Shown piece after piece: positions 2-43,617 of a stretch of DNA of 57,486 nucleotides (its first letter is position 1; every line of letters starts with the position of its first letter). A program made the position numbers and the translations under genes. The DNA is taken from contig JAADFL010000085.1 in assembly GCA_013152945.1 (NCBI GenBank), forward strand, positions 1-57,486, in the 5' to 3' direction. Under the pieces are notes generated by a model, which saw only the letters and a program-made list of their open reading frames with translations, searched no databases and had not been told where the DNA came from. This stretch comes from Deltaproteobacteria bacterium (lineage in GTDB: Bacteria; Myxococcota_A; JAADFL01).

Positions 2-2569
2 TTGTTTTGCTCTTTCTCGATTCTTCTGCTCGCTTTTCTCGACGGGTGCGGGAGCACCACCAAGAACGCTGCGCCGGATTGTGTCACTGACACGGATTGT
101 CCCCAGGGATTCGAGTGCTTGAAGGGAAATTGCCATGAAAAAGGAGACACCGACACCGACACGGATACCGACACTGACACTGACACCGACACCGACACTG
201 ATACTGATACCGACACGGACACCGACACAGACACCGACACCGACACCGACATGGATACCGACACTGACACGGATACCGACACAGACGTTGACACCGATAC
301 CGACACGGACACGGACACAGACACAGGCATAGATAAGGACAAGGATGGTTATTCCGTGAACAAGGGTGATTGTGATGATAATGACCCTGACGTAAACCCT
401 GGAGAGAAAGAGATTCCGTACAATGGCAAAGACGATGATTGCAACCAGGGAACAAGAGATGACGACCTGGACCAGGATGGGTATGGTAAGGAATTCGATT
501 GTAACGACCAGGACCAGGATATCAATCCTGCGGCTGCGGAAATTTGTGGCGATGGAATTGATCAGGATTGTGTGAACGGTGACCTCGAGTGCTCGGATGC
601 GGACAAGGACGACGACGGCTATTCAACCAACCAGGGAGACTGCAACGATGATGATCCGGATGTGAACCCAGGGGAAAAAGAGATTCCATACAATGATAAA
701 GACGACGACTGCAATCCAAATACCAGGGACAATGACCTTGACATGGATGGGTATCCCAAGCCGGAAGATTGTAATGATGGCGACGATTCAATCAACCCGG
801 GCGCAACAGAGATATGTGGTGACGGCATCGACCAGGACTGTAAAGATGGAGATCTGCCGTGCTCAAACATCGATCGGGACGGTGACGGCTATTCAACCAA
901 CGAGGGAGACTGCAACGACAATGACCCGGATGTAAATCCCGGGGAAAAAGAAATTCCGTACAATGGCAAAGATGACGATTGCAATCCTGATACAAGGGAC
1001 AACGATCTTGATAAAGACAACTATCCCTGGCCCCAGGACTGTAACGATAATGATGATTCGGTGCATCCCGGCGCTGTCGAAATATGCGGTGACGGCATAG
1101 ACCAGGACTGTGACAAAAAGGATCTTCCCTGCTCATGCGACGATCACAACGTGTGCACCGATGACAGCCTCGATCCCAATACCCAGGATTGCATTCATTT
1201 GCCGAACAACAAGCCTTGTGACGATGACGACCCCTGCACAATAGGTGATTTTTGCGCCAATAAAAAGTGTCACAGCGGCACTATTATAAGGAACTGCGAC
1301 GACCAGAAGCCATGCACGGAAAACTACTGTGATGCGACGGCCGAGGGCTCGGATCCTGAAACAGGTTGTGTTACCAAGAATAAAAAACCCGGGACGACGT
1401 GTGACGATGGGGATCCATGCACTGTCACGTCCTATTGCAATGATTCGGGAATTTGCAAGGGAGGAGCAATCCGGGTATGCAACGACAACCTGGACTGCAC
1501 GAACGACTATTGCGATGCATCCGCCCAGGGCGCGGATCCGGATACGGGGTGCGTATTCGAAGCGGATGACGGTAAGTGCCTTGATGACTACGACTGCACG
1601 CAGGATTTGTGTGATCCGGATAATTCACCAGACGCTTCCGGCTGCGTCCACAATCCGATAGACCAGAAATGCAATGATGATATTGCATGCAGCATCGATC
1701 GTTGCATCGGCCCCGGTGGTGAGCCCGGTTCAGGTTGCAAGTATGATTATTCCGGTTGTGTCTGCCCGATCGGGCTGGATTGCAAAGACACGGGCGAAGC
1801 ATGTCCATTCGATCTTGAATGCCGGGAACAGGATTTCGACGGGACCAGGATTTCTTTCTGCACAAAGGATTGCACACCCGGCGAATTGAACACCTGCAAG
1901 ACCGGTGGATCGAGCAGAAATTTCATTTGCAATGGGGCCTACAATATTTGTACGTGTAAGCCGGGCTGCCCGCAAAACTGCAAAGAAAACAATGACCCCA
2001 TTTGCCCTCTTACAGGTTTTGTTTCCTGTAACCCGCCCGAGGGAACCTGCACGATGAATTCAGATGGAGGTACTGATTTCTCATGCGAGTCGAACAAAGA
2101 ATGCCCCCCGACCTACTGGTGTGATGTAGATTCCAGGTGCGAGTGTAGTACGTGCCTGACATGCAATCCGGAAGAGGGATGCGGTGTTTTCAATTGGAAC
2201 TGCGCTTTGAGAGACCCGTTCGGTTTCCAGTGCTCCAAATCTTGCATCAACAATAAAGACTGCAAGGAAGCGCCGTTCGGCGCCGATGCCTGGTGCAGAA
2301 ACCCGGGAAGCAACGGGGGCCAGTGTTTCTGTGATCCGGGAGACAGGTGTATTCAGTGCGATGCCGTGCCGGGCGCATGCGAGGAATTCGGTTTGACCTG
2401 TGGGCAATTCAAGTTCCAGGGTCAACGCGGCAACCCGGCATATACACTTAATATCTGCACTGCGCCGTGCACTTCCAGTGATCAATGCCCGGCCTCGTAC
2501 GAGTGCATTCCGGACGATCGAGGCAATTTCTATTGTATCCATCCCGGATGCGCACTGCTCCAGCCCTAG
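2..2569 (+). CDS. Cys-rich lipoprotein with Asp-Thr stalk and MopE-type repeats (5' end at window edge)
   Basis: This is a secreted or surface protein of at least 855 residues. The frame is open from base 2 (TTG), so the true start may lie upstream. The visible N-terminus is hydrophobic and ends in a lipobox-like LDGC (Cys 16), which suggests lipid anchoring. A CxxxxDC..GFxC segment follows, then about 60 residues of almost pure Asp-Thr, then three pairs of units of the form DxDxDGY...DC.D.DP.VNPG..E.PYN..DDDCN. These match the MopE-type metal-binding motif seen in many deltaproteobacterial exoproteins. The C-terminal half (from about residue 385) has many CDD.DPCT..YC and related Cys repeats, likely disulfide-bonded. 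The acidic DxDxDG loops suggest calcium binding, which is inference. No enzymatic domain was recognised. The three other Asp-Thr stalk proteins of the window are at 18025, 20402 and 22427. Confidence 0.85.
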   Translation: MFCSFSILLLAFLDGCGSTTKNAAPDCVTDTDCPQGFECLKGNCHEKGDTDTDTDTDTDTDTDTDTDTDTDTDTDTDTDTDTDMDTDTDTDTDTDVDTDTDTDTDTDTGIDKDKDGYSVNKGDCDDNDPDVNPGEKEIPYNGKDDDCNQGTRDDDLDQDGYGKEFDCNDQDQDINPAAAEICGDGIDQDCVNGDLECSDADKDDDGYSTNQGDCNDDDPDVNPGEKEIPYNDKDDDCNPNTRDNDLDMDGYPKPEDCNDGDDSINPGATEICGDGIDQDCKDGDLPCSNIDRDGDGYSTNEGDCNDNDPDVNPGEKEIPYNGKDDDCNPDTRDNDLDKDNYPWPQDCNDNDDSVHPGAVEICGDGIDQDCDKKDLPCSCDDHNVCTDDSLDPNTQDCIHLPNNKPCDDDDPCTIGDFCANKKCHSGTIIRNCDDQKPCTENYCDATAEGSDPETGCVTKNKKPGTTCDDGDPCTVTSYCNDSGICKGGAIRVCNDNLDCTNDYCDASAQGADPDTGCVFEADDGKCLDDYDCTQDLCDPDNSPDASGCVHNPIDQKCNDDIACSIDRCIGPGGEPGSGCKYDYSGCVCPIGLDCKDTGEACPFDLECREQDFDGTRISFCTKDCTPGELNTCKTGGSSRNFICNGAYNICTCKPGCPQNCKENNDPICPLTGFVSCNPPEGTCTMNSDGGTDFSCESNKECPPTYWCDVDSRCECSTCLTCNPEEGCGVFNWNCALRDPFGFQCSKSCINNKDCKEAPFGADAWCRNPGSNGGQCFCDPGDRCIQCDAVPGACEEFGLTCGQFKFQGQRGNPAYTLNICTAPCTSSDQCPASYECIPDDRGNFYCIHPGCALLQP

Positions 2570-7756: not shown

Positions 7757-9255
7757 AAAGAGAGACAACAGGCATGTTGCCCGTGCTTTGCAATGCTGTT
7801 CCGTCGGACGTGGGCACGGCGCTTTTTCTGGGCGGCAGGGGCAGGTCATGGACCGAGGCTGTTGAGAGCCTGAAGAGGACGATAGGAGATCTTGATGCCG
7901 GTAATTCCCTTTCGGAACTCCTCGGCCCCTTAGGCGATTCAGGGCTGGACATGACGAGGCCCGCCTCGTTGGGACTTGTGGCCCAAGACGGTATTGCCGT
8001 GTTCGATGCGGGCACGGCGATTGGAATGATCGGTAAGATCCGTTCTCCGGTCAAATGGAGGACTGCCTTGGCAAAGGCTGCCGGGGGCAAGGTGCACAAG
8101 CTGAATATCACCTCGGCAAGGGAATCGGGTTGGGCAAGGTTAAGGAGTAAAAAGGGGACCGAAGAACCCCTGGAAATGTTCTTTGCAAGGACCCCGCCGT
8201 TTCTCTATTGCCTTTTCGGCGCAGGAGACAGGAAGGAGGTGAAAGCCTTGCTTTCTTCGTGGTGTGCCAGAGGAGAGTCAGAGGTCCTGTCCGATTTACG
8301 GGCAATGAAAGAGGTTGCGGCGAACCTGGGAGACGATCTTGACGCGTTGCTTTGGCTGAATACATCGAATCTGTGGAGTTCTTCGGATGATTCGACATTG
8401 AATGGAGCCATTGCTTCCATAATCAGGCCCCTGGGACTGGGAGTGGGCATTACTACAGAGGGAGACGACTTATTGATAAAGGTGTTCCTGTCAGCCAGGG
8501 GCTCACTCATGAACGAGTTGTCAAGGTATGTATCCAGGTCACGCACGGCAAGGATATCGTGCACAAGTTTGTCAAAGGCGACCAAGGCGTGGCTCCTGGT
8601 GCTGCTGGACCTGGGCCTGGTTTTCAGGCTGGCGCCTTCACTTGCCGGTGAACTCGCAAAGTTGATTTCAGAAATCAAGGAACGTTTCAAGATCGGAATT
8701 TCTTCAGGCACATCCATTGCCCTGGGCATAACGTCCATCCATTTCCAGGAAAAGGGAGACCCGGATACATTGTCAGGGTACAACGGATTCCTGATAGTAC
8801 AGGTATTGGGCGATGCCATGGCAGCAAAGGCGGCCGGCAAGGGCCTGGATGCCCTCGGAACTATTTGGGGCGCCTCAAAGAGATTTATGAAAATGGGCGT
8901 TGATCAAGGCAAGGGCGCGGTAATGACTATCGGCGGGGTGGAAGTGACGACGACGTGGCACAAAGGCTGTTTGATCCTGGCCACGGACAGGCAATCCCTG
9001 GATAGAGGAGTTTCTGTCCTTGATTCGTCGCAAACCGGGCCGTTGCCCGTGGGAATGCTGGCCGGGTTCGGGGTCAAGGCCGGAGAATTGATGGCACAGA
9101 TGGAACAGGAACAGGAGAAGCAAGAGTCGAGAGAGCAATTACAGGGAGAAACACCAGGTGGAAGCAGGGAGACATTCGAATGGCTGGGTGACATGGATGC
9201 CAGGCTGTACAATTCCGGCCGTGGTTTTCTCCTGGAGGTCACAAAGAGGCGTTGA
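7753..9255 (+). CDS. conserved-looking protein of unknown function
   Basis: The protein has 500 residues. Its GTG start at 7753 overlaps the stop of the lipase-like gene by 4 bp (GTGA), so the two are translationally coupled. There is no clear signal peptide. The sequence reads as a mixed alpha/beta protein with several weak hydrophobic stretches (for example WLLVLLDLGLVFRLAP near residue 280) and short segments such as GLVAQDGIAVFDAG and GGVEVTTTWHKGCLILATD. These are reminiscent of DUF3352-type proteins, but I would not assign it on that. A Gln/Glu-rich stretch (MEQEQEKQESREQ) lies near residue 455. Its position suggests a role alongside the exported hydrolase and the large envelope protein downstream. 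Confidence 0.75.
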   Translation: MKRETTGMLPVLCNAVPSDVGTALFLGGRGRSWTEAVESLKRTIGDLDAGNSLSELLGPLGDSGLDMTRPASLGLVAQDGIAVFDAGTAIGMIGKIRSPVKWRTALAKAAGGKVHKLNITSARESGWARLRSKKGTEEPLEMFFARTPPFLYCLFGAGDRKEVKALLSSWCARGESEVLSDLRAMKEVAANLGDDLDALLWLNTSNLWSSSDDSTLNGAIASIIRPLGLGVGITTEGDDLLIKVFLSARGSLMNELSRYVSRSRTARISCTSLSKATKAWLLVLLDLGLVFRLAPSLAGELAKLISEIKERFKIGISSGTSIALGITSIHFQEKGDPDTLSGYNGFLIVQVLGDAMAAKAAGKGLDALGTIWGASKRFMKMGVDQGKGAVMTIGGVEVTTTWHKGCLILATDRQSLDRGVSVLDSSQTGPLPVGMLAGFGVKAGELMAQMEQEQEKQESREQLQGETPGGSRETFEWLGDMDARLYNSGRGFLLEVTKRR

Positions 9256-12305: not shown

Positions 12306-15278
12306 TTGAAAGAAAGAGATGATAATAATCCTGTTCACCAAAAAGACCTGATATCCCAGCTCCTCCAGGTAAGGCCCGGAGAGTACAAGCTGGTTGCGAT
12401 GATGTTCCTTGCACTCTTATTCGGCGTGGCCTCCCTGGTAGTGGGCAGGGCTGTAAGGGATGCCCTTTTCCTGGCCAGGCACGGCAGTGAGGATTTGCCC
12501 CAGGTATACATGCTCCAGGCGGTTGTTGTGGGGCTTGCATCGTACCTTTATTCAAGGATAGTGGACAGAAAGAGGCGGGACAGGGTCATTACCTGGGTCA
12601 GTCTCTTTCTTGCAGCCACACTGATCGGCCTGCGTCTCCTGGTGGGAAGCTGCAATAAAGAGGTTGTTTTCTTTATCCTGTACCTGTGGATAGAGGTCGT
12701 GGGCGCACTGCTCCTTATCCAGTTCTGGACACTTGCCAACGACCTCTTCCATCCGCGCGAGGCAAAGAGATTATTCGGCATTATCGGCGCAGGAAGTGTT
12801 TTTGCAGGTGCGCTTGGAGGCTTTTCCGTAAAGTTCCTTGCCGTAATGGTCAATGATACTGCTGATCTGCTTTACTTGAGTGCGGGACTGATTATGCTGA
12901 TGGTAGTGTGCATCAACGTGGTCGGGCTCGTGGCGAGAGAAAGGTTGATTGGAGCATATTTGCTGGCAAAGCCGGGACGCAGGAGATTCCGGCTCAAGGT
13001 GTCTGGACGCAAGGTCCTGTCCGATCCATATCTCATATTGATCTCTTCGGTGGTGGTATTGACCTTTGTTGCCACTACAATCATTGACTATGAGTTCAAA
13101 ATTATTACAAGGAATCACTTCGAAGAGATGTACCCAAAGGACCGAGGAAAAGGTTATTCTCCTCCTCTCGAACAAGCTGAAAGGTTCGACGAGAACAAGG
13201 CCCTGAAGCCTGGCAGTGGAACAATAGGTCCGGAGGCTGAACAGGCTATGGCCATATTTTTCGGCCGGTTCTATGGCTGGGCTGGTATTGCAGCGTGTAT
13301 ATTTCAATTGTTATTGACTGCAAGATTTTTACGGTACCGGATTTTTTCATTGTTGTTCTTGCCGTTGACATTGTTGCCCGGACTATTCGGCTTGGTGTTG
13401 TACCCCGGTTTCATAGCTGCCATGGCAGGCAAGGCTGCTGATACCATGTTCAGGTATACATTGAATGATTCAGCATCACAGATCTTGTACCAGCCGGTAC
13501 CCAAAGAAAGGGTGGGCAAGGCCAAGGCCTTTATAGAGGGCATTTTAAAGCCCGGTGCAATCGGACTGGCAGGGAGCATGATTATACTTTTTTCTCTGTA
13601 CAGGTCACCTGCCCTGGCAGGAGTCATAGCCTTGGTCATGACAATTGCCTGGATGCTGCTGGTCCCGTTCATTACCAAGCGGTATCACGCTACAATGGTC
13701 GCCTCTTTGATTGAGAAGAAACTGGGGAAGGAAGGGATGTCTCTCCTGGCCGGTTCCAGAACGGCCAGGGAACTTGAAAGTCATCTCGAGTTGGGTGATG
13801 ACGAACACGTGCTTCATGCGCTGGAACTGTTGGCAAGCCTGGAAGACATCAATCTTGCTCCGGCCGTGGCGGGCTTGCTTCCAAATCGTGGTCCCGGAGT
13901 TCAGATTGCGGCCCTGAAGTACCTTTCTCAAAAGGGAGGCCAGGCTCAGCTTGGAGCGATACTGCTGCTCTTCGATGCTGCAGATGACCAGGTGAGGGCT
14001 GAGGCGGTCAGGGCATATTGCGCTGTCGGCAAGGAAAAGGCCATAAGAACAGTCGTCTCGCTTTTAGAGGATGCATCGGGGCTTGTACGGTCGGCCGCGG
14101 TGGCCGGGCTGATACGATACGGGGGCCTGGATGGAATTTTGAAAGCTGCACGGGTGCTCAAAGAAATGTTGACATCCGATGATCGCCAGGACAGGTTTCT
14201 GGCCGCCCAGGTCTTGCAGTTCATAGGAGTCAAGACTTTCTACAGGGAAATTATGAGCCTGTTTTCGGATGATTGCCTGGATGTGCGCAGGGCGGCCATT
14301 GCGGCGGCGGGAACGGTCCAGAGTCCGGAATTACTACTCGCCCTTGTCTACAAGTTGGGAGACAGGAGCGTATCGAGCCAGGCGGCGGAAGCCCTTGTAA
14401 AATATGGCCCGTCGGCGGTGCCGCCGTTGGTGAGGGCTTTGGACCAGCTCAAGGAAGATCACGTTGTCAGGGTCAACGCAGCCTCGGTGCTCGGCGAACT
14501 GGCGATCCAGGAAGGCGTGGACTGTCTTGTGCGTCACCTGGATGACAAGCACGAAGCCGTCAGGGTGGCTGCAACCAGGGGCCTGGTTTCAGCGCGGAGA
14601 AAGGGCAGTGGATTGAGGGTTCCAGCAGGTCCCGCGCTGGAGCAAATAAGAAACGAGCTCAAGGAATACTATGTTTGGCTGGCTGCCGATAATGACTTGG
14701 TGAAACATGGGTTTCAGGTTCTTCACACCGGGTTGCTGGAAAAACGCCAAGCCATCATGAAAAGGGTATTTGGATTACTGGGCTTGATACTGGATGCGAG
14801 GGAGGTTGATGCCATCTATGAAAAACTCAATTCCAATGCACCCAGGCTTCGTTCCACCGCACTTGATGCAGTTGAATACATGTTGCAACATCTCAAAGAC
14901 CTGAAAACCGCATTGATGCCGATAGTGGATCCGGAGAGTTCATTCGAAGATCTTGAACGAGGGAAATCGGTATTTGCAGAGCATATCCCGTCTCTTTCAG
15001 TAAAACAATGGATTGAAAAGCTGCTTGACGACCCGAGTGATTGGATTCGTGCCCTTGCACTGCATTGCGTCGGAGAGCACAAGCTCAAGTCATTGGCGGA
15101 AAAGGTCAGGGACATGCTTTCAAGTGAATCCGAGTTACTAAGGGAGACTGCCTTGTTCGCTGCACATAGACTGGGGAACACATTGGACATGGAATACTAC
15201 CTGTCCCTTTGTTCCGAAGATCCTTGTCCAAGGATTGCCGATGCTGCAAAGAGCCTGGCTGCAGGAGTAGTCAAATGA
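12306..15278 (+). CDS. Npt/Tlc-type nucleotide transporter with C-terminal HEAT repeats
   Basis: The protein has 990 residues and starts at TTG after a GGGAAAG Shine-Dalgarno. Residues ~30-460 contain about 11-12 membrane segments and the family-like motif VGRAVRDALFLARHG near the first helix, as in the ATP/ADP-translocase-like (Npt1/Npt2) branch of the major facilitator superfamily. From about residue 480 to 800 there is a run of helical HEAT-type repeats (VLHALELLASLEDINLAPAV, RAEAVRAYCAVG, VRRAAIAAAGTVQSPELLL, VRVNAASVLGELAIQEG), followed by a less regular helical tail. Free-living relatives often carry such HEAT repeats. The transported substrate is unknown. It overlaps the cyclic-nucleotide-binding gene downstream by 4 bp. 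Confidence 0.82.
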   Translation: MKERDDNNPVHQKDLISQLLQVRPGEYKLVAMMFLALLFGVASLVVGRAVRDALFLARHGSEDLPQVYMLQAVVVGLASYLYSRIVDRKRRDRVITWVSLFLAATLIGLRLLVGSCNKEVVFFILYLWIEVVGALLLIQFWTLANDLFHPREAKRLFGIIGAGSVFAGALGGFSVKFLAVMVNDTADLLYLSAGLIMLMVVCINVVGLVARERLIGAYLLAKPGRRRFRLKVSGRKVLSDPYLILISSVVVLTFVATTIIDYEFKIITRNHFEEMYPKDRGKGYSPPLEQAERFDENKALKPGSGTIGPEAEQAMAIFFGRFYGWAGIAACIFQLLLTARFLRYRIFSLLFLPLTLLPGLFGLVLYPGFIAAMAGKAADTMFRYTLNDSASQILYQPVPKERVGKAKAFIEGILKPGAIGLAGSMIILFSLYRSPALAGVIALVMTIAWMLLVPFITKRYHATMVASLIEKKLGKEGMSLLAGSRTARELESHLELGDDEHVLHALELLASLEDINLAPAVAGLLPNRGPGVQIAALKYLSQKGGQAQLGAILLLFDAADDQVRAEAVRAYCAVGKEKAIRTVVSLLEDASGLVRSAAVAGLIRYGGLDGILKAARVLKEMLTSDDRQDRFLAAQVLQFIGVKTFYREIMSLFSDDCLDVRRAAIAAAGTVQSPELLLALVYKLGDRSVSSQAAEALVKYGPSAVPPLVRALDQLKEDHVVRVNAASVLGELAIQEGVDCLVRHLDDKHEAVRVAATRGLVSARRKGSGLRVPAGPALEQIRNELKEYYVWLAADNDLVKHGFQVLHTGLLEKRQAIMKRVFGLLGLILDAREVDAIYEKLNSNAPRLRSTALDAVEYMLQHLKDLKTALMPIVDPESSFEDLERGKSVFAEHIPSLSVKQWIEKLLDDPSDWIRALALHCVGEHKLKSLAEKVRDMLSSESELLRETALFAAHRLGNTLDMEYYLSLCSEDPCPRIADAAKSLAAGVVK

Positions 15279-15733
15279 TGTCCACTGTTGAAAAGGCCCT
15301 TATATTGAAAGAAATAGAACTATTCTCCCGAATACCGGGTGATGACCTGGCCCGCCTGGCCTTTTTGGCGGAAGAGGTGATATTCGAACCAGGTGAAATC
15401 GTATTCGAGGAAGGGGAACTTGGTGATGCCCTTTACCTGGTCCTGTCCGGCAGAGCAAAGATTTACCGCGGTAAGACGGTGCTGGCCGAGGTAAAAGAAA
15501 AAGATGTCTACGGCGAGATGGCATTATTGGATTCTGAGCCGAGATCTGCGTCGGTCTCTGCAATCGATGAACTCAAGTGCCTGCGCATTGCAAGAGCTGA
15601 TTTCAATGATTTGCTTTCAGAGAGAAATTCGGTTGCCCGGGGCATCATACAAGTACTGGTGAAGAGACTACGTGTTACGAGTGACGAGCTGGAGGAAGCA
15701 AGACAATATACAGCCCCCCATTCTACGGGGTGA
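15275..15733 (+). CDS. cyclic-nucleotide-binding (CNB) domain protein
   Basis: A 152-residue protein, essentially a single CNB domain. Landmarks are the entry helix (LILKEIELFSRIPGDDLARLA), the strand VIFEPGEIVFEEGELGDALYLVLSGRAKI and the phosphate-binding-cassette region DVYGEMALLDSEPRSASVSA (GE..LL....R..S). A helical tail follows. ATG at 15275 overlaps the transporter stop (ATGA), which fixes the start better than more upstream codons. It probably senses a cyclic nucleotide and acts on the transporter, because in related proteins a CNB domain can be part of the same chain; that link is inference. Confidence 0.85.
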   Translation: MMSTVEKALILKEIELFSRIPGDDLARLAFLAEEVIFEPGEIVFEEGELGDALYLVLSGRAKIYRGKTVLAEVKEKDVYGEMALLDSEPRSASVSAIDELKCLRIARADFNDLLSERNSVARGIIQVLVKRLRVTSDELEEARQYTAPHSTG

Positions 15734-15743
15734 ATATCCAAGT

Positions 15744-16775
15744 ATGAAAATAAAGAGAACAATTGGAATCCTTGTTTCAACCGGTGCCGGGATTCTCCTT
15801 TTATTCTTGTTTCTCGAAATTGCGGTGAGGCTTTCCGGATATTCAAAGAAGTATCTATATGATCCTATTTATAAAAAGAGCGATTTGCCTGGAGTGGTGT
15901 ACGAGCACAAGCCTGATGTTGACGGCAGGGCCAGGTCCGGTACCCCGGTGCATATCGACAACATCGGTGCCAGGTCGGACAGGGATTATCCGATTCTCAA
16001 GCCCGGGAATACATGTCGCGTGGTATTACTCGGCGATTCGTGGACATTCGGCCAGGGTGTGGAATTGCAACATACCTTTGGATATCTCTTGGAGAGAAAA
16101 CTATTGCCGGGGAGATTTCCATCATACCATTTTGAAGTCATCAACTTGGGCGTATGCGGATACAACATCGCCAACATGGTGGCATCTTTCGTGCAAAAGG
16201 CGATTCGCCTCAATCCTGATGTTGTTGTGCTTGCACTAATCGGGGAAGATCTTTCCCTGGACAGGAGATTGGCTGCCGACAAGTTCGGGTACACACGAAA
16301 CCTCTTGAGCCCGCAAGTTCCGGACTGGCTCAAGTCGTGGTTGAGAAACCTGCACATGGCGTACTGGATACGTGACAAGTGGTGGATTTTGACGCACAAG
16401 GGCGAACAGGGCTTGAAGGGAGTGGAAGAGCCCGGCGCTCCGGTATATCGAAAAACCTGGAACAGGGCCGGGAAGCTGTTACAGGAATTCCGGGACAAGG
16501 CAAAAGAGGAAAATATCAGGACGCTAATCATCGACCTGGATTTCAAGCCAAAGCATTCGGCCGAGATGTTGAAGAGGCTGGCCGGGAAACTCGGGGTTCC
16601 TTTTGTGGCATGCTCCCAAGGTGTTTCAGTAAGTGCAAAGAGCCGGGACATTGCACAACTTGTGTTGCCGAATGACGGACATCCCGGTATCAAGGGTCAC
16701 GAGCTGATTGCATCATTGCTTCTCGAAGCTATTACCGCGCAGCTTTCAAATGCCGGGTGTATGAACAGCCTATAG
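15744..16775 (+). CDS. membrane-anchored SGNH/GDSL-type hydrolase
   Basis: The protein has 343 residues and starts at ATG 15744, ten bases after the CNB gene. One N-terminal membrane helix (IGILVSTGAGILLLFLFLEIA) anchors an extracytoplasmic domain. SGNH-family blocks are visible: block I VVLLGDSWTFGQGV with the nucleophile Ser, the block II Gly in NLGVCGYN, and block V NDGHPGIKGHELIA with the Asp and His. The block III Asn is not obvious (VVVLALIGEDLS). Family members deacylate or deacetylate polysaccharides, lipids or peptidoglycan; the substrate here is unknown. It is the likely last gene of the 12.3-16.8 kb transcript, ending at a hairpin (16778-16798). Confidence 0.82.
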   Translation: MKIKRTIGILVSTGAGILLLFLFLEIAVRLSGYSKKYLYDPIYKKSDLPGVVYEHKPDVDGRARSGTPVHIDNIGARSDRDYPILKPGNTCRVVLLGDSWTFGQGVELQHTFGYLLERKLLPGRFPSYHFEVINLGVCGYNIANMVASFVQKAIRLNPDVVVLALIGEDLSLDRRLAADKFGYTRNLLSPQVPDWLKSWLRNLHMAYWIRDKWWILTHKGEQGLKGVEEPGAPVYRKTWNRAGKLLQEFRDKAKEENIRTLIIDLDFKPKHSAEMLKRLAGKLGVPFVACSQGVSVSAKSRDIAQLVLPNDGHPGIKGHELIASLLLEAITAQLSNAGCMNSL

Positions 16776-16811: not shown

Positions 16812-17582
16812 CTATTTGAGTTCCTTTATCTTTCTGTTCCCCTTGATCTCGTAACCCTGGAGCCATTTGTCGGTGCCATCCGCCATCTTCACGTGCAGAT
16901 CGAACTTTCCGGACGGGGCCAGCCCGGCAGCACCACGGTTCTCAGAGTCGTACCTGGCAATATGGAGCTTATCCGGTATGGAGTCGAGCATTCCGCGTTC
17001 CTTGTACTTGGTGTACGTGCCCGGCGGGAAAACAACGACCCCGGAATACTTGTTCAGGTCCAGGTCGAACATGGCGGCGTTCATCAACACGGTGACCCTT
17101 GTCTTGCCCTTTGAAGTCAAGGCAACATTTCTCAACCATCCCTTGCCCAGGGCCCCGTCCTGCTCCACCTCAACGTCGTACACGCCTGCAGGAATCTTGC
17201 CGCCATTGTCCCAAAGAAAGTCCATCTTGACTTCCTTTTTTGTCTTGGTGTCGATGAATTTCTTGGGGTACACCACCCCTGCTCCGAGTCCGTCGGTCCA
17301 TTCGCAGAAGAACTTTGCCAGGGCCGTTCCAGAGGCCTGTGGATCGCCTTCTACCTCTGTCTTTACGGTTACAGCCTTCCACCACGGGCCGAAGTCGGCC
17401 TTGGCCTGAACCTCTGGAACAGGCTTTTCCTGTGCCGCCTTGGCTGGTTTTGCCTGTTCCACCTTGGGGTTGGTTTGACTCTCCGGCTTGGAGACGGCCT
17501 CGTCCTTATGTATTGGCGAGGCACAGCCAAAGGCTACTGGGATCAAATAGGATGTGGCGAACAACAGCACAATACGTTTCAT
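16812..17582 (-). CDS. periplasmic lipoprotein of unknown function
   Basis: A 256-residue lipoprotein starting at ATG 17582, which has AAGGAG seven bases upstream; longer frames upstream lack this. The signal peptide MKRIVLLFATSYLIPVAFGC ends in lipobox AFGC. A Lys/Pro/Glu-rich linker (residues ~25-60) follows, then a compact beta-rich domain of ~190 residues with phrases such as GKIPAGVYDVEVEQDG, FPPGTYTKYKERGMLD and GKFDLHVKMADGTDKWLQGYEI. The ...PAGVYDVEV pattern recalls carbohydrate- or PEGA-like beta-sandwiches, but I do not assign a family. It converges on the SGNH hydrolase gene and diverges from the DUF4185-like surface protein gene. Confidence 0.75.
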   Translation of the reverse strand: MKRIVLLFATSYLIPVAFGCASPIHKDEAVSKPESQTNPKVEQAKPAKAAQEKPVPEVQAKADFGPWWKAVTVKTEVEGDPQASGTALAKFFCEWTDGLGAGVVYPKKFIDTKTKKEVKMDFLWDNGGKIPAGVYDVEVEQDGALGKGWLRNVALTSKGKTRVTVLMNAAMFDLDLNKYSGVVVFPPGTYTKYKERGMLDSIPDKLHIARYDSENRGAAGLAPSGKFDLHVKMADGTDKWLQGYEIKGNRKIKELK

Positions 17583-17673
17583 CCGTTTACTCCTTTTCCA
17601 GATTTCAGGTTGGTGTTGCAGGTTCAATAATCACCGGATCGAAAACCACAGGCTCTGGATATTCCATTCGGCA

Positions 17674-18024: not shown

Positions 18025-20331
18025 ATGTCGGGTACCAAGATCTTTATAAAAATCTTTTCGTGTTCAATAGCGGTCTTGTCGGTCGCAGCCGTAATAACTT
18101 CCACCGCCCGGGCTGCGGCCCCATATTCCAAAAGCGACTCGATTACCGGGGTGGAGTTCAAGTGGGACACCCACAAACGCTATGCTTCGGGCAGTGACAA
18201 CTGGCCCATAACCTGGGCCGATGACGGCAACCAGTATGCCTCCTGGGGAGACGGAGGGGGCTTTGGGGGCAGCAACTCGGACGGCCGGGTTTCTCTGGGT
18301 TTTGCAAGGATAGAGGGAGATAAGGGCTCATATAAAGGTAAAAATGTTTGGGGAGGCAAGGGAGGCGAGAACGCGGCCCAATTCGACGGCAAGAGTTATG
18401 GGATAGTCTCAATAGCCGGCGTCCTTTACATGTGGCGAGGGCCAGGGTCGGGAACCGACTCGTACCAGGATGCCCGCATCTACAAATCAACCAATCACGC
18501 TGCATCCTGGAGTGGAGCAGACTGGACATTCACCAAGTCCACCAGGCTCATAATGCCCACCATATTGAACTTCGGAAAAGACTATGCAGGGGCCAGGGAC
18601 CAATACGTGTACCATTATTTCATTAGGCTCCAGGGAGATCCAGGCAGCCTCGAAGTGCACAAACCGGGCAAGATAGATCTTGCGCGTGTCCCAAGGGGCA
18701 AGCTCATGGATAAGAACTCTTACGAGTTCTTTGCAGGGCTGGACGGCCAGGGCAACCCGGCCTGGACCCCGGACCAGAGTCAGAGAAAGCCTGTGTTCGA
18801 GGACGGCAATGGCGTGGGCTGGAATGTAAGTGTCAGCTATAATGCCGGACTTGGGCGTTACATCCTTTGCACAGAGCACACCAAGAGCTTGAGCGGCAAC
18901 CTGGGTATGTTCGAGGCCAAAGAACCGTGGGGACCATGGAAGACCGTTTACTATGCAGAGGGAGGCAATGCGTTCGGCAAGGGACACATACAGACAAACA
19001 CCTTCTTTTGGAACTTCTCCAACAAGTGGATGAGCAACAACGGCAAGGACTTTGTGCTCGTTTTTTCAGGGATAAACAACAACGACTCGTGGAACACGGT
19101 ACAGGGTTCGTTTCAGGTGGCTGCACCGGACACGACACCGCCCAAGCCCATGAGTGCGGTTTCCAACGTGCCGACCCGGGTCAGGGTGGTTTTTGACGAA
19201 GACTTGGACAGGGCTTCGGCCCAGGACAAGGGAAACTATTCCATAAATCACGGTATCGTGGTCGATTCGGCCTTGCTCCAAGGTGACGGCAAGAGCGTTG
19301 TCCTGAACACCACCGAACACCAGGAAGGAGTAACATATACACTCACTATTGACGGAGTAAAAGACATGGCCGGCAATACGGCAAGAGGTGAAAACATAAG
19401 TTATATTTACGTGGATCGTTTTGCAGTCACCGATATATCGCGGCCCGGGTACAAACTGGACACCTTGAGTGTGGGTAAGCCTGTATATATAGACAGGGAT
19501 TACACCTTTACGAACGTGTACAAGCTCGGCGGACGGATCTACATAGTGACGGCAAACGATGACAAGACCGGTACCGGAGATGATTTCCTGACATTCGGCT
19601 TAACCAAGGCTGCCAGGGTGTACGTGGGACTGGACCAGAGATTGAGCGTTCCATCGTGGCTTTCGGGTTGGACACCAGAAGGAGCATACCTTGAGACGAC
19701 CAATGCGGGTATCCACATGGACCTGTACTCAATGGATTTCGAGGCAGGAATGGTCAGCCTGGGTGGACCCGAGGGAACAGGTGCCGAGAGCATGTACACA
19801 GTGGTCCTTGTACCAAAGTCCGGCAGTGATGCTGATACTGACAGCGACACCGATATTGATACAGATACGGACACTGACATTGATACAGATACGGACACTG
19901 ACAGCGACACCGACATTGATACAGATACGGACACTGACAGCGACACCGATATTGATACAGATACGGACACTGACAGCGACACTGACATTGATACCGATAC
20001 GGACACTGACAGCGACACTGACATTGATACCGATACGGACACTGACAGCGACACTGACATTGATACAGATACGGACACTGACAGCGACACTGACATTGAT
20101 ACAGATACGGACACTGACAGCGACACCGACATTGATACAGATACGGATACTGACAGCGACACCGACATTGATACAGATGTTGATACGGATACGGATACAG
20201 GTTCGAGCGGATCGAATGATAACGGCGGATGTACATCTGTGGGGCATCCAAGTGCTTCGTGGTTGGGGATCTTGAGTTTGATATATATATTAGGGTTGAT
20301 AATGAAAAAGAGGGGCAAAGATCAGGGGTAG
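18025..20331 (+). CDS. DUF4185-like surface protein with Asp-Thr stalk and MYXO-CTERM-like tail
   Basis: A 768-residue exported protein. ATG 18025 is preferred because AGGAGG lies six bases upstream (a GTG at 18022 is also possible). A signal peptide ends near residue 30 (STARA). Residues ~35-370 (QYASWGDGGGFGGSNSDGRVS, ILCTEHTK, MFEAKEPWGPWKTVYY) resemble DUF4185-type propeller domains related to glycoside-binding or sialidase-like folds. Residues ~372-475 look like a bacterial Ig-like domain (PPKPMSAVSNVPTRVRVVFDED). A ~120-residue Asp-Thr/Ser/Ile stalk built on a 36-bp tandem repeat follows. The tail has a GC pair, a 17-residue hydrophobic helix and KKRGK, as in MYXO-CTERM/GlyGly-CTERM sorting signals. 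It is probably a cell-surface carbohydrate-associated protein. Confidence 0.82.
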   Translation: MSGTKIFIKIFSCSIAVLSVAAVITSTARAAAPYSKSDSITGVEFKWDTHKRYASGSDNWPITWADDGNQYASWGDGGGFGGSNSDGRVSLGFARIEGDKGSYKGKNVWGGKGGENAAQFDGKSYGIVSIAGVLYMWRGPGSGTDSYQDARIYKSTNHAASWSGADWTFTKSTRLIMPTILNFGKDYAGARDQYVYHYFIRLQGDPGSLEVHKPGKIDLARVPRGKLMDKNSYEFFAGLDGQGNPAWTPDQSQRKPVFEDGNGVGWNVSVSYNAGLGRYILCTEHTKSLSGNLGMFEAKEPWGPWKTVYYAEGGNAFGKGHIQTNTFFWNFSNKWMSNNGKDFVLVFSGINNNDSWNTVQGSFQVAAPDTTPPKPMSAVSNVPTRVRVVFDEDLDRASAQDKGNYSINHGIVVDSALLQGDGKSVVLNTTEHQEGVTYTLTIDGVKDMAGNTARGENISYIYVDRFAVTDISRPGYKLDTLSVGKPVYIDRDYTFTNVYKLGGRIYIVTANDDKTGTGDDFLTFGLTKAARVYVGLDQRLSVPSWLSGWTPEGAYLETTNAGIHMDLYSMDFEAGMVSLGGPEGTGAESMYTVVLVPKSGSDADTDSDTDIDTDTDTDIDTDTDTDSDTDIDTDTDTDSDTDIDTDTDTDSDTDIDTDTDTDSDTDIDTDTDTDSDTDIDTDTDTDSDTDIDTDTDTDSDTDIDTDTDTDSDTDIDTDVDTDTDTGSSGSNDNGGCTSVGHPSASWLGILSLIYILGLIMKKRGKDQG
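19885..20172 (+). repeat. 8 x 36-bp in-frame tandem repeat (Asp-Thr stalk)
   Basis: Eight consecutive 36-bp units each encode DTDTDTDSDTDI. Units differ only at silent positions (ACA/ACC, GAC/GAT). Partial units flank the array on both sides. It encodes the stalk of the 18025 protein and is not a CRISPR array, because there are no spacers. Confidence 0.9.
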
Positions 20332-20401
20332 GCGTTGGATAGATTGTAACCGGAACAAAGAGAGAAAAATTTGCTTTGAAAAGCTTCTTGGAGGATGCGC
20401 C

Positions 20402-22312
20402 ATGCAACCGAGCATACCAAAGCCGTATGATTACAGGAGCCGGGTTCGTATCTGCATGGAGATAGGACAGTTCCTGCTCATCTTGTTGTTGCTGGCAGGT
20501 TTGTTCTGGTCATGTTCAACAGGCGGTTCCTCGGGTCCGGATTCTGACGTGGACACGGATACCGATACAGATACAGATACAGATACTGACTACATTCCAT
20601 GCAGCCATGACCGGGATTGCCCGGACGGGTACTGGTGTGACAGAGGGTTTTGCGAGAAACCCTCTGGCGATACCGACACCGATACAGACACAGATACCGA
20701 TGCTGATACTGATACTGACACCGACACTGACATTGATGCAGACACCGACACTGACGCAGATACCGATACTGATACAGACACCGACACTGACATTGATAGT
20801 GACATTGACACAGACACCGACACTGACGCAGATACCGATACCGATACGGACACAGACACTGACATGGATAGTGACATTGACACAGACACCGACACTGACG
20901 CAGATACCGATACCGATACAGACACCGACACTGACATTGATAGTGACATTGACACAGACACCGACACCGACGCAGATACCGATACCGATACGGACACAGA
21001 CACTGACGCAGATACTGATACCGACACCGATACTGGTCCTGTCTTGCCCAGGGGACTGAAATGGGTCCGGAACAACCCGATGTTCATAAGTGGCCTTACC
21101 GTGAGTATGGGTAAGCCGCCCAAAAGCGTGGTGGACGAGTACTTTGACCAGTTTCATGCAACAGCAGTGCACCTCTGGGAAACCGGGGTTCCCACCGAGA
21201 TTTCCGGGTGGAAGGATGCAGGAAATTCAAAGTTCAGGTTCGTATCTTGGCTGGACAAGGACGGCACCAGCCTGGATGGCGGGAAACTCGCCGGAGGGTA
21301 TCCTCCGGGAGGCGAGGGCTTGATCGGGTATCAGATAGGAGATGAGCCCACCACATGGGAAGAATACATGGAAATGGCGGATGGAATAGAAAAAGTCCGG
21401 GCCTACGATCCCGATGCCCTGTTAATCTTGAACTTCACTTACCAACTAAACGACAACGGAAAGCTTGACGACGCACTTAATAACTTCGGCAACCAGGTTG
21501 ACGGCGACGTTTACAGCTACGACGTGTACACGTGGTCAAGCAAGACGTACGAACATCTTGCCCGGTACAGGTCGTACGGGCTCAAGTACAGAAAACCATA
21601 TTGGCGGTACCTTTACTGTTACCTGAAGGATGCAGGTGACGAGATCGACGAGTCGGACCTGCGCTGGGATGCTTTCATAGGCCTTGCATTCGGGTACACG
21701 GGACATACGTGGTTCCTGTACCAGGTGGCCTCGAATCACAACCTGATACCTGCGTTGTACAAGTCGGCCGGGGATTTCTCGGCGGAAAAGACGCCCCTGT
21801 GGTCCGTGGTTGCGCAGATAAACCTGGAAATGGCGAACCTTGGCAAGGCCATAACCCAGCTTACGAGCACCGGCGTTTGTTACGTGCCAACCCTGGACTA
21901 TTACTGGCCGAAAGGCACGAAGAAATGGGTGCCGGGATGCGGCGGAGACAAGTACATCACCACCATCCAGAAAGGCCAGGGCGAGTTGGCACTGGAGATC
22001 CTGGTTGGTGTATTCGAGGACGATGCAGGCGAAACCTATGTAATGGTACAAAATGTGCGGCATAAGCACGGACCTTTTCCCATAGACAGCGACAAGCCAG
22101 GAACCATCCACCTGGAGTTCGACTTCTCGCCTGCGCCACAGGACCTGGATCCGGATAGACTCCTGGTCTTGAACAAGGAGAGCGGCCAGGTGGAGGAGTT
22201 ATCCCTCGTGTCCGATGGAGGCTCGAAATATCACCTGGACCTCACCCTGGCCGCAGGTGACCCGGTCCTGTTCAAGTACAAGACATCCAAGCCTTTTGCA
22301 CTACAACGATAG
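20402..22312 (+). CDS. lipoprotein with Asp-Thr stalk and glycosidase-like TIM barrel
   Basis: The protein has 636 residues and starts at ATG 20402 behind GGAGG. The N-terminus has an extended n-region, a hydrophobic run (FLLILLLLAGLFW) and a lipobox-like WSC at about residue 38. A short Asp-Thr run, a Cys module (CSHDRDCPDGYWCDRGFC) and then a ~115-residue Asp-Thr/Ala/Ile/Ser stalk with 24-residue periodicity follow. The C-terminal ~420 residues look like a TIM-barrel glycoside hydrolase: AVHLWETGVPTEISGW, GEGLIGYQIGDEPTTWEEY (the Glu of GDEP is a candidate acid/base), ALLILNFTYQ, DVYSYDVYTW. A C-terminal beta-sandwich-like segment ends it. No specific GH family can be named. It lies 70 bp after the DUF4185-like gene and is probably co-expressed. 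Confidence 0.8.
   Translation: MQPSIPKPYDYRSRVRICMEIGQFLLILLLLAGLFWSCSTGGSSGPDSDVDTDTDTDTDTDTDYIPCSHDRDCPDGYWCDRGFCEKPSGDTDTDTDTDTDADTDTDTDTDIDADTDTDADTDTDTDTDTDIDSDIDTDTDTDADTDTDTDTDTDMDSDIDTDTDTDADTDTDTDTDTDIDSDIDTDTDTDADTDTDTDTDTDADTDTDTDTGPVLPRGLKWVRNNPMFISGLTVSMGKPPKSVVDEYFDQFHATAVHLWETGVPTEISGWKDAGNSKFRFVSWLDKDGTSLDGGKLAGGYPPGGEGLIGYQIGDEPTTWEEYMEMADGIEKVRAYDPDALLILNFTYQLNDNGKLDDALNNFGNQVDGDVYSYDVYTWSSKTYEHLARYRSYGLKYRKPYWRYLYCYLKDAGDEIDESDLRWDAFIGLAFGYTGHTWFLYQVASNHNLIPALYKSAGDFSAEKTPLWSVVAQINLEMANLGKAITQLTSTGVCYVPTLDYYWPKGTKKWVPGCGGDKYITTIQKGQGELALEILVGVFEDDAGETYVMVQNVRHKHGPFPIDSDKPGTIHLEFDFSPAPQDLDPDRLLVLNKESGQVEELSLVSDGGSKYHLDLTLAAGDPVLFKYKTSKPFALQR
20674..21033 (+). repeat. degenerate Asp-Thr repeat array (72-bp higher-order unit)
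   Basis: Hexanucleotide GACACC-type repeats encode the stalk of the 20402 protein. A higher-order unit of 24 codons (DTDTDTDADTDT followed by DTDTDTDIDSDI) is repeated about three times with silent differences. Confidence 0.8.
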
Positions 22313-22426
22313 GGTAAATGGATTGTGACTGTATGTGTTCGAAACAGGGATTGAGCCCAAAAGAGCGAAAGCCCTGAATGTCCGGGCATACCGTTCTTGC
22401 TTGGCCCTATTAATGACCGGAAAGGC

Positions 22427-24295
22427 TTACTTGGTCTCGAAGGCGCCAATGTCAGGCGCTGACCCGAGGTAGTCCAGGGAAACTTCCTGCTCCTTGGTAT
22501 ACGTTACATCCCTGTCCAGGGTGAGCTGGTTTGAGCCCATGTTCACCGAGACTACTACCGCTCTCTGATCGGTTCCCACGAGCCTGATGGTGTCGCCCTT
22601 CTCCCCGGGTATCGAGAAACCGTCGTAGAACCACGAGGCGTCTTCCACGGGCAAGGTCTTGCCTTTCCCTGAATCTGTTGTACGTGTCAGGTACCTGCCT
22701 GCATCCACGAGCGTACTGTTCGACTCGATCCTGAAATCTGCATTGTCCGGGTCCTTGAACAGGGGATCCGCCTCGATACTGTACTTGACCAGTTGCGGGT
22801 AATTGCTCTCCCACCACTGGACATTCTTCTGCTCGTTCCAGGCCGAACTGCGCCAGCCATAGGTTATCAGCCACGGCCGGCCCACCTGGTCCTGGCTGAA
22901 GAAGAAGCAGTTGTGGTCCAGGACGAACCCGTCCAGCCTTGATGTCTTGAACTGCACGTGCTTGCCGTCCAGTACGTTGACCCACCAGTCCCACCTGGTG
23001 TCGTTAGCCACAAAAGTGCTCCCGCTGAACACGTTGTTCACGAAACGATTGTCATTGAATGTATCACCCTCTGCCAGGTCGACTCCTGCAAAGTCAGTAC
23101 CGTGAAAAACGTTGTTGTACACCCTGTTGCCGGTGTTGTGCCTGGCCTCTTTTCCGTAAAGCGCCATCCTGAGGCCCGGCCCCACCGTGCTGTGGAAAAT
23201 GTTTTTCCTTATGATTCCGTCCTGTCCTGCGTATTGTATTCCAGAGTACGGCGAATGGTTGCCGCTGGAGGGAACATACGCAAACTCGTTGGCCTCGACC
23301 AGGTTCCGCTTTGTTGCGTCGTACTTGGTTATTCCGCCCGGTCCGTCACAGTCGTATATTTCACCGTCCTTTTCGAGATTATTGTACATATAGTTATCAC
23401 GGATAACATTGTAGTTGCTGCATCGTAGAGCCCACAATGCGTGTCCGGCGTTCACGAACTCGTTTCCCTGTATCAGGTTGTGGTCGGACGCAACCAGCGC
23501 CATGGCGTCCTCTGTATTGTCCTTTATGGTGTTGTCCAGGATCTTGTTAAAGTTTGCATTTCGAAGGAATATGCCCGCCTTTGAACCTGCGCCCTGGTCT
23601 GTGTTGCCAAGGAAGCTGTTTCCCCGCACGATCACGTGGTCAGCACCGTCCAGGTAGATCCACCTGGCGGTATTCTTGATAACCATTCCTTGAACTACGA
23701 TGTAACTCAACCCGGTGAGGTCTATTGGCGGGCGCAATGATCCCGTGAACTCGGGCTTCTCCCCCGGATAGGCCATGAAGGTAATGGGCGCTCCCCGGCT
23801 GCCGGATTCGGTGGGTTTCAACTGCTTTGTGTACGAGCCCTGGCGAAGCACAACCGTATCCCCTGCCTTGGCCGCTGCCGCAGCATCCGGCAGAGACTTG
23901 AACGCCCTTGAATCTCCATGGCCGCAAGTCCGGTCCTTTACAGAGTAATCATTGCACTGCCCATTGGAAATAGATTGATCCACGTAGATCGCGGAATCCG
24001 GCACCTGGCTGGTGTCAGTATCCGTGTCAGTATCCGTGTCAGTATCCGCGTCAGTATCCGAATCCGTATCTGCGTCAGTATCAATGTCAGTGTCCGTGTC
24101 AGTATCAATGTCAGTGTCCGTGTCAGTATCAATGTCAGTATCAATATCAGTGTCAGTATCAGTATCCGTATCAGTGTCAATGTCAGTGTCACTGCTTGGC
24201 GTATGGTTGCTGCTACATCCTATAATGCCAAGCATTGACGTCAATACAACCAAAACGGAAACAAATGAAAATCTGAACAGCCTGATTTTTTTCAT
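22427..24295 (-). CDS. right-handed beta-helix lipoprotein with Asp-Thr stalk
   Basis: A 622-residue lipoprotein starting at ATG 24295 with a perfect AGGAGG. The signal ends in lipobox IIGC at about residue 27. An Asp-Thr/Ile/Ala stalk covers residues ~36-96. The rest is a parallel beta-helix: an entry segment (AIYVDQSISNGQCND, GDTVVLRQGSYTKQL), then many short turns such as HVIVRGNSFLGNTDQG, NKILDNTIKDNTEDA, HNLIQGNEFVNAGHA, NVIRDNYMYNN and NRVYNNVFHGTDFAG. This is the pectate-lyase/NosD-like fold of polysaccharide lyases, epimerases and surface adhesins; no catalytic residues can be assigned with confidence. It converges on the 20402 gene and has its own strong promoter. Confidence 0.83.
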   Translation of the reverse strand: MKKIRLFRFSFVSVLVVLTSMLGIIGCSSNHTPSSDTDIDTDTDTDTDTDIDTDIDTDTDTDIDTDTDTDIDTDADTDSDTDADTDTDTDTDTDTSQVPDSAIYVDQSISNGQCNDYSVKDRTCGHGDSRAFKSLPDAAAAAKAGDTVVLRQGSYTKQLKPTESGSRGAPITFMAYPGEKPEFTGSLRPPIDLTGLSYIVVQGMVIKNTARWIYLDGADHVIVRGNSFLGNTDQGAGSKAGIFLRNANFNKILDNTIKDNTEDAMALVASDHNLIQGNEFVNAGHALWALRCSNYNVIRDNYMYNNLEKDGEIYDCDGPGGITKYDATKRNLVEANEFAYVPSSGNHSPYSGIQYAGQDGIIRKNIFHSTVGPGLRMALYGKEARHNTGNRVYNNVFHGTDFAGVDLAEGDTFNDNRFVNNVFSGSTFVANDTRWDWWVNVLDGKHVQFKTSRLDGFVLDHNCFFFSQDQVGRPWLITYGWRSSAWNEQKNVQWWESNYPQLVKYSIEADPLFKDPDNADFRIESNSTLVDAGRYLTRTTDSGKGKTLPVEDASWFYDGFSIPGEKGDTIRLVGTDQRAVVVSVNMGSNQLTLDRDVTYTKEQEVSLDYLGSAPDIGAFETK

Positions 24296-24417: not shown

Positions 24418-24502
24418 GGCCCTCCCCACCCAGGTTGATTTTCGGCCCTCGGCCCTCGGCCCTCCCCACCCAGGTTGTCCTCGGCCCTCCCCACCCAGGT
24501 TG
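24418..24502. repeat. C-rich 20-mer repeated three times
   Basis: GGCCCTCCCCACCCAGGTTG occurs at 24418-24437, 24458-24477 and 24483-24502. Related copies lie at 43578-43617. The complementary strand has runs GGG-T-GGGG-A-GGG. Confidence 0.85.
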
Positions 24503-37026: not shown

Positions 37027-37041
37027 AACAACGGCACTAAG

Positions 37042-37082
37042 GGAAAGGGCGGGTGGGGAAAAGGGGAAAGGGCGGGTGGGGA
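37042..37082 (+). repeat. tandem G-quadruplex-forming repeat
   Basis: Two adjacent copies of GGGAAAGGGCGGGTGGGG on the plus strand (37042-37059 and 37064-37082). Each has four G-runs with loops of 3, 1 and 1. They lie between the HDOD-GGDEF stop and the -35 of the lipoprotein operon. Confidence 0.75.
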
Positions 37083-37094
37083 AAAAGTGAAAGG

Positions 37095-43488: not shown

Positions 43489-43577
43489 TGTCGAAGCCGA
43501 GTCAATATGTCAGTAAAGTGCCGAGTGAAAATGTCGTTGGGGTAATGGTTTATGCCACATACCTTTGGGCGGTGTCA

Positions 43578-43617
43578 GGCCCTCCCCACCCGAGTCAGGC
43601 CCTCCCCACCCAGGTTG
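43578..43617. repeat. C-rich 20-mer repeat (two copies)
   Basis: Two units beginning GGCCCTCCCCACCC, the second identical to the 20-mer at 24418-24437. They lie inside the 558-bp element. Confidence 0.8.

Follow-up and report, generated by a model that had tools for sequence, protein, structure and literature searches.

What is an Asp-Thr repeat doing in three neighboring genes whose products carry different heads and different anchors, and does sharing it make them a system? The window, the whole stretch of 57,486 nucleotides that was analyzed, contains three ORFs at positions 18,025 to 24,295, each with a (DT)n stalk. An earlier note on this DNA had counted these three and the window's first gene as stalk carriers, and had proposed that they form a carbohydrate-binding or -processing surface system. 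All four stalk genes were borne out (Table 1), as was the allotment of anchors, which by sequence are one C-terminal tag (gene 1) and two N-terminal lipoprotein signals (genes 2 and 3).

Table 1. Stalk-bearing genes of the window and their parts, in nucleotide positions of the window.
Feature	Coordinates	Strand	Content or evidence
Window's first gene, fourth stalk carrier	2..2569	+	Lipobox, Cys-rich knot, stalk, six MopE repeats; 5′ end cut by contig edge
Window's first gene, stalk, aa 49-108	146..325	+	
Gene 1	18025..20331	+	Signal peptide, DUF4185/GH183-like propeller, Big_5 Ig-like domain, beta domain, (DT) stalk, MYXO-CTERM-like tail
Gene 1 head 1, DUF4185/GH183-like	18103..19170	+	Fold match to EndoMA1, PF13810 relatives, invariant Asp pair
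Gene 1 stalk, 124 residues, aa 602-725	19828..20199	+	
Gene 1 MYXO-CTERM-like tail	20200..20331	+	Cys nt 20230-20232, then hydrophobic segment and KKR
Gene 2	20456..22312	+	Predicted lipoprotein with Cys at nt 20513-20515; Cys-rich knot between a short and a long stalk, then a glycosidase-like head
Gene 2 first stalk, 18 residues, aa 29-46	20540..20593	+	
Gene 2 Cys-rich knot (CSHDRDCPDGYWCDRGFC), resembling the Myxo_Cys_RPT repeat	20594..20668	+	Sequence; Lustrin_cystein at E 0.03 only
Gene 2 second stalk, 122 residues, aa 72-193	20669..21034	+	
Gene 2 head 2, TIM barrel and C-terminal beta domain	21035..22309	+	Model pLDDT 84.4; Asp-Glu-Pro, invariant, where barrel strand 4 ends
Gene 3	22427..24295	-	Predicted lipoprotein with Cys at nt 24217-24215; stalk; head a right-handed beta-helix
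Gene 3 stalk, 60 residues, aa 36-95	24011..24190	-	

The start of gene 1 is the ATG at 18025, with a Shine-Dalgarno sequence (AGGAGG) ahead of it; for gene 2 the ATG at 20456 is the likelier one, since a signal peptide with lipobox does not result from starting at 20402. Genes 2 and 3 have signal peptides ending in a lipobox Cys (LLILLLLAGLFWSC, a relaxed box, in gene 2 and SVLVVLTSMLGIIGC in gene 3), the lipobox-like motifs being GLFWSC and GIIGC, respectively, and FLDGC in the window's first gene, where TIGR04201 also matches weakly (E 0.014). Genes 1 and 2 are in tandem and gene 3 is convergent with gene 2, so the trio is not one operon. Promoter and terminator scans did no better than shuffled sequence.

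Several neighbors can be described. A lipoprotein-like ORF adjoins the trio at 16812-17627 (-), with a Lys/Pro/Glu/Ala-rich linker after its Cys in place of Asp-Thr. An ORF at 12306-15278 (+) joins an ATP/ADP-transporter-like (TLC) domain to HEAT repeats, an unusual combination, and another at 9252-12197 (+) fuses PD40 beta-propeller repeats to an Omp85-type barrel. Short tandem repeats at 24454-24502, 37039-37094 and 43574-43611 have in common a CCCTCCCCACCC-like core or its complement.

Sequence searches of the PDB with head profiles gave no significant match, and the heads were compared as structure models. The DUF4185-like and Ig-like reading of gene 1 in the earlier note agrees with what was found. 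Head 1 (AlphaFold2 model, pLDDT 83.3) is predicted as a five-bladed propeller of the GH183 fold and matches the endo-D-arabinofuranase EndoMA1 (8ic1) at Z 28.1, rmsd 2.6 over 272 residues, the next entry scoring Z 19.5. In the Pfam search PF13810 (DUF4185) was not reported for the window protein itself; four homologues (L167, L168, L059, L169) pass its cut-off of 39.5 bits and a fifth (L052) scores 38.2. A Big_5 Ig-like domain was identified in gene 1, and the beta domain beyond it recurs in two MYXO-tagged paralogues. Asp58 (nt 18196-18198) and Asp76 (nt 18250-18252), which are D32 and D50 of the model, fall at the catalytic positions. Matched by motif and spacing, they correspond to the nucleophile Asp33 and acid/base Asp51 of EndoMA1, numbered after its alignment, with a spacing of 18 in both, and are invariant in seven homologues. 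Glu243, essential in EndoMA1, is not kept in the head-1 family, where the aligned positions hold N, C, S, T, G or R and no conserved acid lies there or adjacent. We infer that head 1 is a retaining-type furanosidase-like enzyme.

Gene 2 had been called glycosidase-like, and its model points the same way: a TIM barrel whose nearest structures are GH42, GH164 and GH140 at Z 17-23, with no Pfam match for the head. Its Asp-Glu-Pro, invariant in five homologues, follows the strand at 96-101, the position of the clan GH-A acid/base Glu at the end of strand 4. No invariant Glu follows the strand at 189-193, where the strand-7 nucleophile would be expected; D158 and D163 are invariant. The beta-helix proposed for gene 3 is supported by Pfam (Beta_helix, 7.9e-21), with a weak match to Chondroitinas_B (7.1e-6). 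Going by the models, two or three of the trio are probably sugar-cutting enzymes, and it is plausible that the locus acts on surface or environmental glycans, which would be a property of its heads and not of the stalk.

We searched the genome for the stalk. (GAYACN)4 matches the 4.84-Mb genome 1,764 times, and its reversed control 4 times. Every one of the 312 arrays with at least four units in the fetched DNA falls within an ORF and is read there as Asp-Thr (310 in listed ORFs, 2 by eye). A protein search gave 126 matches, nearly all to the stalk itself, and the DNA surveyed was 100 stretches around stalk and MYXO-CTERM matches, 1.17 Mb including the window. Requiring (DX)8 or longer, with X mostly Thr, yielded 118 ORFs. 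These amount to about 110 genes, four pairs being halves of frameshifted genes and others contig-edge fragments; this number and the stalk lengths (182 residues in the longest) are uncertain because the assembly often breaks at (DT)n arrays. Among 97 heads no Pfam family occurs in more than five members of either set. They include HYDIN-type Ig, FGE-sulfatase-like, beta-helix, PKD, penicillin amidase, trypsin and subtilase domains, and further PAD, PhoD, S15 peptidase, GH123, redoxin and MopE repeats. The proposal that the shared stalk marks a carbohydrate system is not supported by this survey, with about 110 genes carrying it on unrelated heads. Nor is the trio a special cluster that the stalk defines, the stalk being genome-wide. 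Stalk genes are mildly clustered, with 14 pairs of neighbors within 1.5 kb (18 minus the four split genes) where uniform placement predicts about 4 (Poisson p 8e-5, a rough value), and the trio belongs to such clustering. The earlier note had held that stalks scattered over unrelated families with no common context would speak against it; the families are indeed unrelated, but they share a context in the membrane anchor.

Frameshifts inside the stalk, by which DTDT becomes RHGYRHGY and similar, split genes at L088 (C163, ~14.9-17 kb), L115 (C66, ~68.5 kb), L125 (C185, ~44 kb), L110 (C59, ~5-6.6 kb) and L078. They do not come from whole-hexamer slippage, and may be assembly error or real inactivation. 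Breaks of the assembly at (DT)n arrays are seen, for example, at C206:1, C186:12, C167:6, C97:80 and the ends of C20 (L116) and C135 (L111). At L118, 11650-14313 and 14259-16382 (+) are adjacent Cys-rich paralogues of which only the first has a long DT stalk, in mid-protein.

The position of the stalk follows the anchor. Simple rules, in place of a trained signal-peptide predictor, were used to sort the anchors, and on these 83 of the 118 ORFs have an N-terminal signal with Cys, 19 have a C-terminal Cys with a transmembrane segment and basic tail, and 16 are partial or unassigned. The gap from lipid Cys to stalk is at most 15 residues in 39 of the 83 predicted lipoproteins; in 33 it is 16-75, with a small Cys-rich knot often coming between; in the other 11 the first stalk begins more than 75 residues from the Cys. 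The gap from stalk to tag Cys is 5-20 residues in 13 of the 19 tagged proteins, 45-68 in five and 576 in one. Median relative position of the stalk is 0.17 in N-lipoproteins and 0.84 in tagged proteins (Mann-Whitney p=5e-8), and the stalk lies in the N-terminal half of 64/73 lipoproteins versus 0/13 tagged proteins. Asp at +2 after the Cys occurs in none of the 83. The (DT) stalk is not required for anchoring, as this genome encodes many lipoproteins and MYXO-tagged proteins that lack it.

One protein departs from the anchor rule: the ORF at L119:3889-6144 (-) has its stalk in a fibronectin-like stretch, followed by a CFIATTVYGS motif, a hydrophobic segment and an end resembling outer-membrane proteins. 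A third anchor type, an outer-membrane barrel, was considered from this ORF and set aside, the stalk lying inside the fibronectin-like stretch. Two others (L097, C92 ~21.6-23.7 kb; L067, C32 ~29-31 kb) combine a lipobox-like Cys at the N-terminus with a MYXO-CTERM tail, carry the stalk on the C-terminal side, and are possibly anchored at both ends. The N-terminal region of the L097 protein is 52% identical to a trypsin-like ORF of L116.

Related heads are found on opposite predicted anchors, and the linker moves with the anchor. Head 2 is on a predicted N-lipoprotein in the window, and a relative (L069; 26-32% identity) is MYXO-tagged with its stalk on the C-terminal side. Head 1 is MYXO-tagged in the window, and a relative (L065; 38-39%) is an N-lipoprotein with an acidic, non-DT linker after the N-terminal Cys. 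In three other genomes the homologues of head 2 are N-lipoproteins whose linkers are acidic but non-repetitive; those of head 1 elsewhere also include N-lipoproteins, with a short linker in one case and a PPPMN linker in another. Acidic or disordered linkers are therefore common, and the regular DT repeat is one form of them.

The tail of gene 1 has the Cys signature, hydrophobic helix and basic end of a MYXO-CTERM tag (NGGCTSVGHPSASWLGILSLIYILGLIMKKRGKDQG). It scores 21.1 bits (E 7e-5) against a profile built from 19 stalk-less tails of its own genome, one decoy reaching E 0.71. TIGR03901 does not list it up to E 10 in its own genome, nor did the isolated tail match in NCBIfam; 11 tails of this genome pass the TIGR03901 cut-off, whereas in 14 control genomes no tail does. 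The genome has a myxosortase-family gene (C57:15196-15837; Mrt_core 118.3 bits, cut-off 100), its product falling under the MrtX (168.6 versus 180), MrtC and MrtP cut-offs, and a gene for the type II secretin GspD (559, cut-off 351). MYXO-CTERM tails and myxosortase point to Myxococcota or a close relative as the phylum of this genome. In Myxococcus xanthus, myxosortase cleaves MYXO-CTERM proteins, the surface is reached via the type II secretion system (T2SS), and lipidation of the Cys is predicted (PMC11980579).

Of 377 genomes of the phylum, 123 have the stalk pattern, and the highest counts fall in a few families (f1, that of this genome, and f41, f22, f12 and f15). In four other families (G243, G295, G099, G245), the best loci, inspected by eye, are mostly N-lipoproteins with the stalk after the Cys, and a few are tagged with the stalk before the tag. 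Outside this genome, relatives of head 1 and of head 2 were not seen together in any sampled genome of the phylum, and this speaks against a fixed system of two or three genes; on this ground and from the convergent gene 3, a dedicated operon was rejected. Among the papers searched, none gave a relevant description of Asp-Thr repeat stalks.

Stalk Asp codons are GAC and GAT at 54/46, and all four ACN codons are used; adjacent hexamers are identical in 14% of cases, where 8.6% is expected. Over 4,256 units the Asp phase is 99.65% Asp, a figure biased upward as ORF selection required Asp runs. Glu is at 0, although merging let one or two units without Asp pass, among which Glu would have been counted. 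The alternate phase is T 79%, I 6.4, A 4.2, V 3.7, S 2.8, M 1.5 and L 1.2, with almost no N, K, P or R. Mixed synonymous codons, together with the retention of Asp and the absence of Glu, mean that selection acts on the protein and not on the DNA repeat.

The reading that we prefer, and judge likely, is that (DT)n is a general anchor-proximal acidic spacer for proteins predicted to be lipid-anchored. In N-lipoproteins it would begin just after the lipid-attachment Cys; in MYXO-CTERM-like tagged proteins it would end just ahead of the tag Cys, the presumed cut site of the myxosortase-family protease. Either anchor would leave the head at the far end of an extended polyanionic chain, here 60-140 residues or some 20-50 nm if fully stretched. 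Asp alternating with Thr, Ile, Val, Ala or Ser, with no Glu, Lys, Arg or Pro, would keep the chain extended and non-helical and repelled from an acidic surface. At the level of sequence this reading is built on the architecture, its genome-wide distribution, the correlation with anchors, protein-level conservation, and the presence of a myxosortase-family gene and GspD. Stalk proteins would on this reading be lipidated, extended, displayed on the outer-membrane surface and, for some heads, enzymatically active.

Other readings were weighed against the spacer. Tandem arrays with hexamer periods, at some of which the assembly breaks, are what neutral microsatellite expansion with no protein function would leave. 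However, every array is in one reading frame, synonymous sites are mixed with Asp almost invariant, and where Thr is replaced, Lys, Arg, Pro and Asn are avoided, residues no farther off in codon space than Ile and Ala; the codon data rule out microsatellite drift, and we regard this reading as extremely improbable. The strictness of the residues could instead mean that the stalk is stiffened by Ca2+ chelation at regular Asp or by O-glycosylation of Thr. The keeping of Asp to the exclusion of Glu and the predominance of Thr at alternate positions are consistent with this, and the Ser-Asp repeats of staphylococci are glycosylated. Against it, the stalk lacks the Gly periodicity of thrombospondin type 3 repeats, and DTD lies outside the Bacteroidetes glycosylation motif D(S/T)(A/I/L/V/M/T). 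We hold such stiffening to be unlikely.

The stalk might also be mainly a surface-export signal read by export machinery, like the acidic lipoprotein export signal of Bacteroidetes, where a few acidic residues near the Cys suffice and their position is critical (PMC5080379). Acidic residues here do begin at a modal 9-10 residues past the lipid Cys, but the longest stalk is far longer than a signal, 33 lipoproteins have it displaced by 16-75 residues whereas the Bacteroidetes position is critical, C-terminally tagged proteins have it too, and many lipoproteins do without it; we find this reading very doubtful. The view of the earlier note, a dedicated surface system for binding or processing carbohydrate in which stalk proteins work together, has more in its favor. 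Heads 1 and 2 fold, in their models, as glycosidases and head 3 as a polysaccharide-lyase-type beta-helix, a GDSL esterase-like gene lies upstream at 15672-16775, and a Bacteroidales homologue of head 1 is near an ORF that by eye resembles DUF4038-type glycosidases. It meets, however, the unrelated heads of the other stalk genes, the failure to see relatives of heads 1 and 2 together in any other sampled genome, the orientation of gene 3, and neighbors among which, where examined, no transporter or binding partner was recognized. Such a system is tentative and less probable than the general spacer.

A bolder form of the spacer reading is that the stalk is a shared surface-display determinant of Myxococcota-like bacteria, recognized or required by two lipid-anchoring routes of opposite polarity that use the same type II secretion step, and so marks the surface proteome. 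We consider this a long shot. If the spacer reading is right, about 100 candidates for outer-surface proteins could be picked out in each genome, across several families of the phylum, by a simple sequence feature, and the mirrored position of the stalk would lend independent support to the view that the Cys of the C-terminal MYXO-CTERM tag and that of the N-terminal lipobox serve as equivalent membrane anchors. The subject bears on the lipoprotein route to the surface in this phylum and on the question of lipid at the C-terminal Cys. The Asp sites hold no Glu, an unusually clear rule set by nature for extended polyanionic linkers.

Each part has counterparts in known systems. Gene 1 resembles MYXO-CTERM/myxosortase substrates such as M. 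xanthus TraA in its C-terminal Cys, hydrophobic helix and basic tail, and both genomes have a myxosortase-family protease and a T2SS secretin; TraA has an irregular disordered region before its tag (PMC11980579) where gene 1 has the regular stalk, and, unlike in M. xanthus, the tail is not listed by TIGR03901 and the protease is under the MrtX/MrtC/MrtP cut-offs. Head 1 shares with EndoMA1 (PMC10509167) the five-bladed propeller and the nucleophile and acid/base Asp pair 18 residues apart; unlike EndoMA1, gene 1 is without Glu243 and adds the Ig-like domain, stalk and C-terminal anchor. Head 2 resembles GH-A-type glycosidases (GH42, GH164 and the GH140 apiosidase) in its barrel with beta domain and its Asp-Glu-Pro at the acid/base site, but is only 10-14% identical to them, with no Pfam match and no Glu seen at the usual nucleophile position of strand 7.

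For the stalk itself, the likeness to Ser-Asp stalks that the earlier note had drawn stands: as in the staphylococcal Clf/Sdr proteins, a polyanionic chain with Asp at alternate residues lies between head and anchor, and the NCBIfam Sdr/Clf models match the stalk only. Here, unlike in Clf/Sdr, Thr replaces Ser, the predicted anchors are of Gram-negative lipid type, the stalk is at either end and the heads are unrelated. Membership in MSCRAMM Sdr/Clf was ruled out, with at most 75 bits against cut-offs of 999-2500 and no LPXTG in the sequence. Tethered surface lipoproteins and the Bacteroidetes export signal also have a flexible or acidic segment after the lipid Cys (PMC7857515, PMC5080379); in contrast, alternation here is strict over 16-182 residues and is mirrored at C-terminal anchors. 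Periscope proteins (PMC9704523) likewise project a head on a repeat stalk, but theirs has folded repeat domains and the (DT) stalk does not. As a probable spacer of general use next to the anchor, the (DT) stalk fits best as a variation on known stalk and tether designs.
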